Part shown: positions 9,533 to 14,256 of the stretch, one piece after another
Layout of the letters: each line of letters opens with the position of its first letter
How positions within the stretch are numbered: position 1 is the first letter of the stretch
NCBI GenBank assembly: GCA_001604385.1
Contig: LVBK01000016.1
Location: 1-64,000, forward strand
Reading direction: 5' to 3'
DNA length: 64,000 nucleotides
Source of the DNA: Spirochaetales bacterium Spiro_09
Lineage (GTDB): Bacteria > Spirochaetota > Spirochaetia > Treponematales > Treponemataceae
Translations under genes and position numbers: made by a program
The notes under the pieces: model-generated
The model's database searches: none
What the model was told of the DNA's origin: nothing
The model's input: the letters and a program-made list of their open reading frames with translations, nothing else

Positions 9533-9605
9533 TAGCAGGAGGAGGACTCGAACCTCCGACCTCCGGGTTATGAGCCCGACGAGCTGCCAACTGCTCTATC
9601 CTGCG
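9533..9605 (-). tRNA. Initiator tRNA-fMet (CAT)
   Basis: A 73-nt cloverleaf with 7-bp acceptor, 4-bp D stem, 5-bp anticodon stem, CAT anticodon in CTCATAA, five-base variable loop and TTCGAGT T-loop. Initiator hallmarks are visible: no Watson-Crick pair at 1:72 (C1 opposite U72), A11:U24 in the D stem, and three consecutive G:C pairs (GGG/CCC) next to the anticodon loop. CCA is not encoded. C-U at 1:72 differs from the C-A of E. coli but keeps the essential mismatch. Its promoter and terminator are both visible, so it is a single-gene unit. Confidence 0.93.
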
Positions 9606-9850: not shown

Positions 9851-11008
9851 ATGAGAGAAATAGTTATTGTCGATGACGAGCAGGGAATCACGACCGCCCT
9901 TGCCCGGGAAATACGCCTCGAATTCGGGGATGAGGTCTACAAGGTGTCTACCTTCAACAACCCGCTCGAAGTCCTGCCCTATCTTGAAGAACACCGCGAC
10001 CGGGTTTTTTTGACCATTTCCGACCTGCGCATGCCCCAAATGAACGGAAGCGAACTTCTTGAGCGCATCCGCATGCAGAATCCGCTTATACAGACAATTC
10101 TCCTGACCGCCTATACCGACATGGAAAATATCCAGCGGGCAATTTCGTCGAACCTCCAGAGTCTTTTGATGAAACCCTGGAAACAGGAGTCGGTTGTCGA
10201 AGAGATTAAAAAGGCAGAACGCCTGTGGGTATCCAATACCGAGTATACCAGCCTGAAGTCCCGTCTGAACCGTGAATTGCGCTCTGCGGGAGAATTTCAG
10301 GCCAGACTTTTTTCGAAGGGTATCCCGATGGATTTGGCAAACCATATTTCCATCGCCTTTACTCCGCTGGATGAATTTCATTGCGGCGGCGATTTTTATG
10401 ATATTTATACCGTCGAGAAAAACAAATACCTGATTATTTGCGGCGATGTTATCGGACACGGACCTAAACCGGCAATTATTTCCGGCATCCTGAAAACTGC
10501 CCTGGAAACCATTACCGAAACGCAGGCAGAGGCCCTCCGCGATCCTGCCACGCTTTTGAGCGAACTGAATGTACGGTTTTGCCGGCTGGTTTCCGGCTCC
10601 CCTGAAGTGTTGGCGGCAATGTCCGCGGTCTATGTCGATATTGCCGGTCAAACGCTGTCCATCGCGACGGCGGGCCTTCCTCCGGTTATACATATCCGAA
10701 ACGGCAAGCCCGAACTGATAAGCACGCCGAATCCGGTCCTGGGCGTCATGAGCGAGGCTACCTATTACCGGACAGAACGGGCGCTTCTGCCGGGAGATGT
10801 GATCATTCTGGTAACCGACGGCCTGACGGAATCTGAAGGGGCGCAATTCAATGTTTCGCTTGAAGCGATGTACACCCTGGCCTCCGGATGGCACTCCTAT
10901 GATGCCCTTGCCATTCAGGATTCCTTCAAGCATATACTGCCCGGCAAAACATTCAGCGATGACGCGACGGTCATCTCGCTGAAAATACCCGGGAAGGCAG
11001 ATGAATAA
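9851..11008 (+). CDS. Response regulator with PP2C/SpoIIE-type phosphatase output
   Basis: 385 residues: receiver domain (about 1-122) with acidic D8/D9, phosphoacceptor D58 (TISDLRMPQ) and conserved K in MKPW, a short coiled linker, then an RsbU/SpoIIE-type Ser/Thr phosphatase domain (about 175-380) with GGDFYD, ICGDVIGHGPKPA, LVTDGLTE and FSDDATV metal-binding motifs. Such proteins dephosphorylate an anti-sigma antagonist or another partner when phosphorylated. It overlaps the following histidine kinase by 8 bases, so the kinase is the likely phosphodonor. No anti-sigma or antagonist gene lies nearby, so the target is unknown. Translation probably starts on a leaderless message. Confidence 0.88.
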   Translation: MREIVIVDDEQGITTALAREIRLEFGDEVYKVSTFNNPLEVLPYLEEHRDRVFLTISDLRMPQMNGSELLERIRMQNPLIQTILLTAYTDMENIQRAISSNLQSLLMKPWKQESVVEEIKKAERLWVSNTEYTSLKSRLNRELRSAGEFQARLFSKGIPMDLANHISIAFTPLDEFHCGGDFYDIYTVEKNKYLIICGDVIGHGPKPAIISGILKTALETITETQAEALRDPATLLSELNVRFCRLVSGSPEVLAAMSAVYVDIAGQTLSIATAGLPPVIHIRNGKPELISTPNPVLGVMSEATYYRTERALLPGDVIILVTDGLTESEGAQFNVSLEAMYTLASGWHSYDALAIQDSFKHILPGKTFSDDATVISLKIPGKADE

Positions 11009-12806
11009 CGGTTTTCAGCTTTTTATCGATACCGCACCGGCAGCGGCGGTCTTCGCCATCGGGTGTATCGTACTCCTTATTCCGCGGATGAGAGAGACCG
11101 CCGTGCGTTCACTTTTCATCTATCTATTGCTTGTCATTTTTTTACTGATTACCAATATTTCCGAACTGGTGGCGACAACCAAACATGAAACCATTCTGTT
11201 CGCCAAGCTGCAATATATTCCGTTTGTGTACATACCGGTTGTCTGGCTGTCCTTTTGCCTGCGGTTTACCGGATGGCTGACAAAAACAAACAGGACCCTG
11301 ATTATAAGCGCCATACTGTTTCCGCTTATGCTCTTCATTCCGGTCATTACGAACGAAATGCACCATCTTGTCTGGACGGAATTGCGTTTTGTGTATGAGG
11401 GAGAGTATTCCGTACTCCGCCCGCAGCATGGCCCGATTTTCTGGATTCTTGCCATCTATAACTGGTGTTTTATCGGCTTGGGCACACTGCTCGTGCTGCG
11501 ATCCTTTTTTACCGGACAATCCATTTTTTACCGCCAGTCTCTGTGGATTGTCGCAGGAGTCCTTCTTCCCGGCATCAGCAACTTTATCAACCTGAGCGGA
11601 GTATTCCCCTGGCTGGAAAAGGATTTTACCCCGATCGGATATGCCCTGTCCGGCATCTGCTTCGTTCTCGGTATGTACTTTCACCGGCTTTTTTGGGTTA
11701 TGCCGGTTGCCAGAAGCATTATTGTGGAAAACCTTACCATCGGCATACTGGTTCTTGACCGGCACGGCTGGATTGTCGATCACAATGAACGCATCGATCA
11801 CCTGCTCAACTTGCCCCAAAATGCGGCCGGGCTTTCTTACATTAACTTTCCCCGCCTGTTCCGCCTGATGTACGCGGGCAGGATTTTCGATGACTGGCCA
11901 AGTAACAGCTCGGGCGAAGGTCAAATGGAAATTGACGGTTTGACCCTTTACTGGACCGCACATCCGTCCGCGAACGACGCGCGAGGGGTCATCATTACGG
12001 TGGACGACATTTCCGAAAAGATCCGCCTGCAGACAGAAATGGAGTTGATAAAAAACGAATTTGTCAGTCGCGAAAAGCTTGCCACAATAGGCAGAATAAC
12101 CGCAGGCCTGGCTCATGAAATCAACAACCCGCTTGCCTATATCAAAAGCGATGCCCGATCCCTGTCAAAAATGATTGAAAAAAAGTGCAGGGAAGTGATG
12201 GGAGATCGCGAACCCGATGACGAAATGAAAGAGATTCATGCCATCCACCAGGCCTTGTACAGCGGGCTGGAACGGATAGAGGGTCTGGTCGGGTCCCTCC
12301 TGGCCTTTTCCCGCCAGGGCACCATTGAATCAAAGAACGAACCCTTTGACCTGAACGAATGCATCGAAACAACAATCGGCTTTGTCCGGCATGAACTGAA
12401 ACGAACTATAGACATCAGGTACATTCGCAACCCGGTACCCCCGGTCAGGGGAGACAAGGGAGAAATGAATCAGGTTCTGTTCAATTTGATTTCAAACGCG
12501 GCCCAGGCTATTCGGGAGCGGGCGGTCAGGGAGAGAACCGATTGGGAAGGAATCATAACCATTCAGACCTTGACGGATGGTAACGCAGTGTACTGCGACG
12601 TACAAAACAACGGGAATCCCATCAGCAACGAGGTAAAGGACAGAATGTTCGATCTGTTTTTTACAACAAAAAAGGAAAAGTGGGGAACCGGACTGGGGCT
12701 TAACCTGAGCCGCGAGATAATAGAAAAGCACCACGGAGGCGCACTCTATCTATTTTCGCAGGACCCGGTCATTTTCAGGATTGAATTGCCTCTGGAGGGT
12801 ACATAA
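11001..12806 (+). CDS. Sensor histidine kinase with 7TM N-terminus and PAS domain
   Basis: 601 residues. Residues about 10-235 form seven hydrophobic helices of the HisKA_7TM type. A PAS-like domain follows (about 240-345), then a HisKA helix with the phospho-accepting H372 in GLAHEINNP and an HATPase_c domain (about 470-600) with N box FNLISNAAQAI, DLFFTTK and GTGLGLNLSREI. The kinase probably phosphorylates D58 of the upstream regulator, whose gene it overlaps. GGAAGG lies just before the ATG. The 7TM plus PAS layout suggests sensing a membrane-soluble or redox signal, but the ligand is unknown. Confidence 0.9.
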   Translation: MNNGFQLFIDTAPAAAVFAIGCIVLLIPRMRETAVRSLFIYLLLVIFLLITNISELVATTKHETILFAKLQYIPFVYIPVVWLSFCLRFTGWLTKTNRTLIISAILFPLMLFIPVITNEMHHLVWTELRFVYEGEYSVLRPQHGPIFWILAIYNWCFIGLGTLLVLRSFFTGQSIFYRQSLWIVAGVLLPGISNFINLSGVFPWLEKDFTPIGYALSGICFVLGMYFHRLFWVMPVARSIIVENLTIGILVLDRHGWIVDHNERIDHLLNLPQNAAGLSYINFPRLFRLMYAGRIFDDWPSNSSGEGQMEIDGLTLYWTAHPSANDARGVIITVDDISEKIRLQTEMELIKNEFVSREKLATIGRITAGLAHEINNPLAYIKSDARSLSKMIEKKCREVMGDREPDDEMKEIHAIHQALYSGLERIEGLVGSLLAFSRQGTIESKNEPFDLNECIETTIGFVRHELKRTIDIRYIRNPVPPVRGDKGEMNQVLFNLISNAAQAIRERAVRERTDWEGIITIQTLTDGNAVYCDVQNNGNPISNEVKDRMFDLFFTTKKEKWGTGLGLNLSREIIEKHHGGALYLFSQDPVIFRIELPLEGT

Positions 12807-12894
12807 AAAAACCCGGCAGGTAAAAGGAGGAGTAAAAACCCTGCCGGGACCACAGAAAGGAGGTGAACGGGACGCTGTGCTCATTCAGCATCAT
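12804..12894 (-). ncRNA. Candidate anti-Shine-Dalgarno small RNA
   Basis: On the minus strand an extended -10 promoter (TGTTATAGT at 12901-12909) predicts a start near 12894. The transcript would hold a small 5' hairpin (GCTG/CAGC), then an unpaired stretch containing TCACCTCCTTTCT (12854-12866), identical to the usual bacterial 16S rRNA 3' tail, then an intrinsic terminator: a 9-bp perfect stem (12812-12820 with 12840-12848) and U7. The 19-base terminator loop shows a second motif, CUCCUCCUUUU. The opposite strand carries no T-run after the stem, so the terminator serves the minus strand. No credible ORF exists in it. Its end overlaps the kinase stop codon. Expression is unproven. Confidence 0.6.
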
Positions 12895-12900
12895 GTGTTC

Positions 12901-12909
12901 ACTATAACA
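12901..12909 (-). promoter_or_regulatory. Extended -10 promoter for the small RNA
   Basis: TGT directly precedes TATAGT on the minus strand. No good -35 is visible at normal spacing, which is usual for extended -10 promoters. Confidence 0.5.
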
Positions 12910-13047: not shown

Positions 13048-14256
13048 ATGAAGAAGTCAGTTTATTGTATCGGCACAGCCCTTTTTTTCCTTATACTGGC
13101 AGGCTTACCAGCAGAAACATTCCGTTTTATCTACCGGGAAGGCGACAATTACCGAATCAATTCAATTGTCACACAACGGGTATACATAAACCGCCGGGTG
13201 TCACACTCCGCAGAAATTAATAACCGCATCAGGGTTTCGGTCGTCTCGGTCGAAGACGACGGCTCCGCTGTGCATGAAGCCCGTTTCATGACCACCGAAC
13301 GCACCTCAAACCGCTCTTTCAGCTGGGGGCGCGAATATGAAAGCCGCTTTTCCCGCAATCCCCGTGGCCGCTTTACAATAGATTCCCGCTATTTTATGCC
13401 GGTTGTCCGGGACGTTCCCGTATTTCCGGAACATGATGTCGCACCGGGGGATCAATGGGAGAGCGAGGGACAGGAAGCCCACGACCTGCGTGACCAGTTC
13501 GGTCTTGCCGAGCCCTTTACGGTTCCCTTTACCGCGGAATATACCTACGTCGGCCGGGTACAAAAAGACGGAAAAACCTTGCACCATATTCAGGTTGAAT
13601 ACAATCTGTTCTCGGACACACCCGCGCAATTGGCACAAAAGGCCACGGGAGACTATCCGGCCACCACAATGGGTTATTCCCGGCAAAACCTCTACTGGAA
13701 CAATGTAGAGGGCTTTCTGGATCATTATACTGAAGAATTCAGAATACAAATGCAGCTTGCTTCCGGAACGGTGATTGAATTCCGCGGAGAGGCCCGCGCC
13801 GAAGTAACAGAAACCGAACTGCTTGACCGGGAGCGCATTGTTCGTGAAATGAACGATGAATTGAACCGTCTGGGTATAGCAGATACCCGGGCAAGCTCTA
13901 CCGCCGAAGGCATTACCATTACCCTGGAAAACATCCAGTTTGAACCCGATTCCGCCCGGCTCATGCCGGCAGAAAAAGCAAAAATTACCACGATCGCGGC
14001 GCTTCTTGAACGATATCCTGACAAGGAGCTTTTGATAACGGGGCATACCGCCCTCGCAGGCACAGCAGCCGCCCGAAAAGCGCTTTCGGAAGAGCGGGCG
14101 GAAGCGGTGGCACGGTTTCTGGTAGAAATGGGCGTACGCAACGATTACAACGTGTACACACGGGGAATGGGCGCGGAACAGCCAGTCGCGCCGAATGACA
14201 GCGAACGGAACCGGGCCAAAAACCGGAGAGTAGAAATTACCATACTCGAGCAATAG
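13048..14256 (+). CDS. OmpA-family C-terminal domain protein
   Basis: 402 residues with a signal peptide (about 1-23, AGLPA before ETF). The N-terminal 260 residues are beta-rich without a family I recognise. The C-terminal 115 residues are an OmpA-like peptidoglycan-binding domain: ITLENIQFEPDSARLMP, LLITGHTALAGT, ALSEERAEAVARFLVE and NRRVEITIL. It should tether an envelope layer to peptidoglycan noncovalently from the periplasm. ATG 13048 is preferred over TTG 13021 because it starts a clean signal peptide and the upstream codons look like promoter sequence. Confidence 0.85.
   Translation: MKKSVYCIGTALFFLILAGLPAETFRFIYREGDNYRINSIVTQRVYINRRVSHSAEINNRIRVSVVSVEDDGSAVHEARFMTTERTSNRSFSWGREYESRFSRNPRGRFTIDSRYFMPVVRDVPVFPEHDVAPGDQWESEGQEAHDLRDQFGLAEPFTVPFTAEYTYVGRVQKDGKTLHHIQVEYNLFSDTPAQLAQKATGDYPATTMGYSRQNLYWNNVEGFLDHYTEEFRIQMQLASGTVIEFRGEARAEVTETELLDRERIVREMNDELNRLGIADTRASSTAEGITITLENIQFEPDSARLMPAEKAKITTIAALLERYPDKELLITGHTALAGTAAARKALSEERAEAVARFLVEMGVRNDYNVYTRGMGAEQPVAPNDSERNRAKNRRVEITILEQ

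Follow-up and report, generated by a model that had tools for sequence, protein, structure and literature searches.

LhrC and the alpha-r14 RNAs bind ribosome sites through exposed C-rich motifs and block initiation (PMC4132741, PMC10746234). LhrC of Listeria monocytogenes is composed of two stem-loops with a single-stranded stretch, and its CUCCC...UUUU sites bind the Shine-Dalgarno (SD) sequence of lapB (PMC4132741). The alpha-r14 RNAs have conserved, unpaired anti-SD motifs and stems that are highly different in sequence (PMC10746234), and one of them, CcsR, is co-transcribed with a DUF1127 protein (PMC10253847).

The predicted RNA described here is encoded within a stretch of 64,000 nucleotides from Spirochaetales bacterium Spiro_09, the whole of which is referred to as the window. 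It resembles LhrC, whose mechanism has been tested, in having two stem-loops and C-rich sites that recur in linker and terminator loop. However, LhrC is multicopy and carries a third site in loop A, whereas the spirochaete RNA is single-copy in the window's genus and its loop A, which in the window is AAUGAGCA, contains no CCUCC; phylum and neighboring genes differ as well. The Rfam model of LhrC matches neither the window at the gathering score nor, when E-values are relaxed, the RNA in any of 16 homologous loci. With the alpha-r14 or cuckoo RNAs of Alphaproteobacteria (NfeR1, CcsR) it shares unpaired conserved anti-SD motifs and divergent stems, but those RNAs have three hairpins, each with CCUCCUCCC, while here there are two CCUCCUUU(U) sites, of which one belongs to the linker and the other to the loop of the terminator. 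CUCCUCCUUUU is exposed by the terminator loop alone, the loop of the 5' hairpin being free of CCUCC, and in contrast to CcsR no DUF1127 partner was seen at the spirochaete RNA. RsaE/RoxS of Firmicutes also direct an unpaired C-rich motif (UCCC) against ribosome sites, as cited in PMC4132741, but their motif and fold are different and there is no Rfam match. The TD-1 and TD-2 motifs of Treponema are structured RNAs of the same bacterial group; the only match to a TD family, that of the TD-2 model (RF03162), falls at a separate place of one homologous locus (L037:903-1023, plus strand, genus g33; 61.8 bits), approximately 480 nt upstream of the RNA and on the same strand.

No family of Rfam 15 matches the RNA at gathering or relaxed thresholds; a sub-threshold Flavo-1 match in locus L016 lies away from it. 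In the open-access literature we found no described treponeme trans-acting RNA with such an anatomy, and to our knowledge spirochaetes other than Borrelia have few known regulatory RNAs. We regard it as a new RNA family, one that belongs to an already known functional kind, for which the comparative evidence of a gene is convincing and the mechanism is proposed by analogy. If this is true, spirochaetes would be one more phylum where anti-SD small RNAs appear to have arisen independently.

Anatomy of the RNA and its anti-SD sites

The gene, approximately 98 nt long, was placed by a covariance-model match at 12902-12805 of the minus strand, both ends being predicted, and reads from 12902 to 12805 GUGAACACAUGAUGCUGAAUGAGCACAGCGUCCCGUUCAC-CUCCUUUCUGUGGU-CCCGGCAGG-GUUUUUACUCCUCCUUUUA-CCUGCCGGG-U7. 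Comparative pairing defines a 5' hairpin (12863-12902, minus strand) of GUGAAC...GUUCAC and GAUGCUG...CAGCGUC. It is followed by a single-stranded linker (12849-12863, minus strand) carrying the first anti-SD motif, CCUCCUUU, at 12863-12856, the initial C of which is the hairpin-closing base. The intrinsic terminator hairpin (12812-12848, minus strand) has a stem of 9 bp, CCCGGCAGG/CCTGCCGGG, in which 12848-12840 pairs with 12820-12812, and a loop of 19 nt that holds the second anti-SD motif, CUCCUCCUUUUA (12821-12832, minus strand). The U7 tail (12805-12811, minus strand) corresponds to a U-run found on the RNA strand of every close homologue, the opposite strand being without one. The predicted fold consists of the 5' hairpin, a CUCCUUU linker and the 9-bp terminator, with a z-score of -4.1 for the minus strand against shuffles, and the anti-SD motif is unpaired in predicted folds.

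An earlier sequence-only reading had proposed a minus-strand small RNA here, and its 9-bp stem, U7, TCACCTCCTTTCT (12866-12854) and loop CTCCTCCTTTTA (12832-12821) are all present where it had placed them. Its central proposal, an RNA gene that ends in a terminator and exposes CCUCC(UU) twice, is borne out by conservation and covariation in relatives, and its claim that there is no usable ORF agrees with indels between homologues of lengths not divisible by three and with compensatory pair changes.

That reading had also regarded the RNA as a mimic of the 16S rRNA tail. The 16S 3' end of a congener, GGATCACCTCCTTTCTGAG, was used as the reference (a motif search found no 16S end in the window's own assembly) and has a stretch of 14 nt, TCACCTCCTTTCTG, in common with the window RNA. 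The identity is present and CCUCCUU is conserved, but the rest of the stretch is partly paired and unconserved. In the window, TCAC of TCACCTCC falls within the hairpin 1 stem, and in relatives the letters flanking CCUCCUU vary freely (UACCUCCUUUCC, UGCCUCCUUAUU). Because TCAC is part of a stem and the neighboring letters are unconserved, we conclude from these alignments that CCUCCUU alone is under selection and that the 14-nt identity is partly coincidental.

The loop site, CUCCUUUU, is invariant across the 20 rows of alignment A4 (described below), while the stem around it covaries: the variants CCCGGCAGG, CCCGACAGG, CCCUGUAGG and CCUGACAGG each occur with a matching partner. Judged by sequence comparison, a covarying stem around a constant loop is the pattern expected of selection on the loop sequence. 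The linker CCUCCUU is kept in nine of the eleven congeners and in the homologues of genera g28 and g33, and has decayed in two congeners, G004 (CUUCCUUU) and G002 (CCACUUUU). In a single close homologue (L049:1501-1578, minus strand, g28) the anti-SD letters of the loop are gone; since the linker site is retained there, every close homologue has at least one anti-SD site. The covariance search that had been proposed recovers terminator and motifs in relatives, though with the linker decayed in G004 and G002 and the loop site lost in L049. Loss of the terminator or of the CCUCC motifs in relatives had been named as evidence that would count against the RNA; it withstood this examination, and both helices covary.

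Conservation, promoter and genomic neighborhood

Searched at the DNA level, nearly all genomes of the window's genus gave one strong copy each. The first covariance model, built from ten genus copies, finds the RNA, always single-copy, in 11 of 12 genomes of the genus; the twelfth assembly is 72% complete and divided into 440 contigs. Matches of 43-66 bits occur in the same-family genera g28, g31 and g33. Carriers with a name and a complete genome include Treponema putidum OMZ 758, T. vincentii OMZ 806 and Brucepastera parasyntrophica RmG11, the records of the first two being NZ_CP009228.1 and NZ_CP050497.1, whereas the covariance-model search gave no match in a 1.1-Mb g33 genome that is T. 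pallidum-like in size. In alignment A4 of 20 homologues, which was fitted to the covariance model and leans towards structure, 94.5% of cells are paired versus 33-52% when the partners are slid. Double-sided changes affect 16 of 24 pairs, with 47 such cells versus 12.5 in shuffles; the covariation score is 0.352 versus 0.178 shuffled, and none of 500 shuffles matches any of these measures. The 5' hairpin shows changes on both sides in 12 of 15 pairs, with 90.8% of cells paired, and the terminator compensatory changes across genera in four of nine pairs, with 100% of cells paired. A structure-free MAFFT alignment of ten sequences (A2) agrees, with 91.2% paired versus 30-51% slid. The element is far beyond chance, and we conclude from the comparative data that a small RNA gene lies on the minus strand, has an intrinsic terminator and exposes two CCUCC(UU) sites; it is probably standalone and vertically inherited.

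A TGTAAC box at 12934-12929 of the minus strand, 32 nt upstream of the first conserved base of the RNA, is a probable -35-like promoter element. In 21 of 21 close homologues from several genera it precedes the first base of hairpin 1 by 32-35 nt, and the spacing is similar in two loci of other families (L076, L087); TTT is frequent near -10. A strict composite, TGTAAC-N18-TTT-N4-AGTG, has six matches in 12 genomes, five of them at the RNA locus, versus two matches for the reversed control, and a search of 12 genomes for further genes with a TGTAAC-type promoter found essentially none. As the spacing of the box is fixed and the composite is nearly exclusive to the RNA locus, TGTAAC is probably a dedicated promoter of the RNA. 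A sigma-70 scan found no promoter at the locus. The extended -10 proposed by the sequence-only reading, TGTTATAGT (12909-12901), had to be abandoned: its letters are present, but they run into the beginning of the conserved 5' hairpin and are themselves unconserved, and with TATAGT as the -10 element transcription would start within hairpin 1. The predicted ends and promoter, together with the named hosts, would make RNA-based control in treponemes directly testable.

Divergently adjoining the RNA is a gene for an OmpA-family envelope protein (13051-14256, plus strand; Pfam OmpA, 4.7e-21), and such a divergent neighbor adjoins most of the close homologues of the RNA, in loci of g1, g5, g28, g31 and g33. 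In locus L012 a transporter-like ORF, judged by eye, lies between the RNA and the OmpA gene. In most congeners the next gene downstream of the RNA is tRNA-Met(CAU), found in the window at 9533-9605 of the minus strand, with initiator features read from its sequence (GGG/CCC anticodon stem, unpaired 1-72). The window has an opposing two-gene insert of about 3 kb between RNA and tRNA, encoding a response regulator/phosphatase and a 7TM histidine kinase (9851-12806, plus strand), neither of which has a homologue in the relatives' loci that were read out. The kinase stop codon abuts the 3' end of the RNA, and read-through of the kinase mRNA would be antisense to the RNA. As the RNA is kept intact with the insert in the window and with the additional ORF in L012, it appears to be independent of its neighbors in cis, and as the downstream genes differ while the OmpA neighbor stays across five genera, it appears to be independent of the downstream genes in particular. 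The conserved divergent neighbor at most hints at a role in envelope regulation. As a separate observation, locus L009 (2300-2400) carries an inverted copy of the 3' end of the initiator tRNA (aggagtaggactcgaaccgg) just behind the tRNA, opening a GC-rich stretch, and L019 has a similar stretch; this may be a repeat derived from the tRNA or a scar left by integration.

Two readings would deny the locus a trans-acting product. The RNA could be a cis-acting leader or attenuator of the initiator tRNA gene, which follows within a few hundred nucleotides in most congeners, in Brucepastera and in g5. However, the tRNA has its own promoter-like site (TTGACC-17-TATATT, 9646-9618), in the window the 3-kb insert lies between the two on the opposite strand, and in T. 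putidum and other g28/g33 homologues the tRNA is kilobases away or missing from the locus while the RNA is kept. Owing to the insert and the tRNA-free loci we rejected this reading as highly improbable. Even less credible is that the terminator is an ordinary one, or that CCUCC is the mere antisense of SD sequences belonging to a small gene on the plus strand, the locus having no function as RNA. Antisense SDs are common and the plus strand does read AAAAGGAGG and AAAGGAGGTGA, but that strand has no conserved ORF, the U-run is confined to the minus strand, the 5' hairpin and the fixed upstream box are conserved in the minus-strand reading only, and the stem covaries around an invariant loop; the comparative data led us to reject a small plus-strand gene.

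Putative targets and mode of action

The reading that we favor, and hold to be reasonably probable, is that of a standalone, vertically inherited small RNA with its own TGTAAC promoter and intrinsic terminator, which blocks the 30S subunit by trans-pairing with GGAGG-type ribosome sites of selected mRNAs. Transcription would begin from the promoter with the TGTAAC box and end at the terminator. Pairing in trans with GGAGG/AAGGAG sites would involve (U)CUCCUCCUUUU(A/G) of the terminator loop and CCUCCUUU of the linker, and the 30S subunit could not bind to a paired site, resulting in repression. The two equivalent sites may provide redundancy or allow two targets per RNA. While comparative sequence shows the gene with its two helices, its terminator and its pair of CCUCCUU sites, we infer the pairing in trans, and the blocking of initiation is proposed after the model of LhrC and the rhizobial alpha-r14 RNAs.

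In pairing predictions on a 288-kb sample, the loop pairs at -9 kcal/mol or better with 44% of start regions versus 7% of internal coding regions, and a shuffled loop with 22%; SD quality entered into the choice of the starts, so that this figure is inflated. The linker alone is barely above its own shuffles (63% versus 59%). Target prediction at ribosome sites, as suggested by the sequence-only reading, shows a predicted preference of the loop for start regions, but no conserved target emerged. Its expectation of many AAAGGAGG-led messages was contradicted: AAAAGGAGG-N3-10-ATG occurs six times in the window's genome versus eight in the reversed control, and AAAGGAGG or a longer site precedes two of the 206 called genes of the 288-kb sample. 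Summed over the genus, AAAAGGAGG-N3-10-ATG occurs 107 times versus 57 in the reversed control. A search for perfect SD targets over the genus, with 30 loci read out, gave argD as the sole recurrent family, in two close genomes, and with AAAAGGAGG-led starts unenriched in the window's genome no well-defined conserved target set was found. The candidate SD sequences named for comparison are AAAAGGAGG versus GAAAGGAGG, plus the argD leader. Since AAAAGGAGG-led starts are rare in the genome, a small target set is likelier than a general one; the preferred targets would probably be a few mRNAs with unusually long purine-rich sites, not all messages.

A conserved part that is generic CCUCCUU, with no gene-specific extension common to the genera, would also suit a global translation brake, that is, an abundant RNA competing with the ribosome for SD sites generally, for example in stationary phase or under stress. 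Such a brake would require a very high copy number, and the extension CCUCCUUUU is unlike CCUCCUUUC of 16S rRNA, which suggests tuning away from typical sites; we consider it unlikely. We give still less credence to a decoy that pairs with no mRNA and titrates a protein recognizing the 16S 3' end, such as Era, a ribosome maturation factor or a nuclease. CCUCCUU is indeed common to the RNA and the 16S tail, and some distant terminator loops, reading UCACCUCCUUUU, hold almost the whole tail. The GTPase Era binds GAUCACCUCC at the 16S 3' end and reads its GAUCA part; however, GAUCA is unconserved in close homologues (UACCUCC, UGCCUCC).

Distribution beyond the family

A second covariance model, whose E-values are rough, matches 98 of 294 genomes of the order, in 44 of 83 genera, at an E-value of 0.1 or better, and also matches other families of the class. 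Forty distant loci were read out. In 35 the terminator loop contains CCUCCUU or CUCCUUU, and in 13 another copy lies upstream; five matches without CCUCC (L099, L103, L107, L110, L111) were discarded as false positives. The distant CCUCCUU-loop loci may be either homologous or convergent. Family f5 (L077, L096, L074, L080, L083, L091) has a second terminator type with the loop UCACCUCCUUUU, nearly the full 16S tail, which recurs in many genomes, at times in one that has the first type as well. It is conceivable, and we put it forward tentatively, that these loci form a class-wide spirochaete family, covering the window's family and several others of the class, in which terminator loops that copy the anti-SD serve as a general translational control, with at least two paralogues per genome in some lineages and loss in the reduced Treponema pallidum-like genome. 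In one complete f5 genome (G034:C1) a 20-nt match near the end of the query terminator occurs at about 20 places and is probably an unrelated dispersed repeat.
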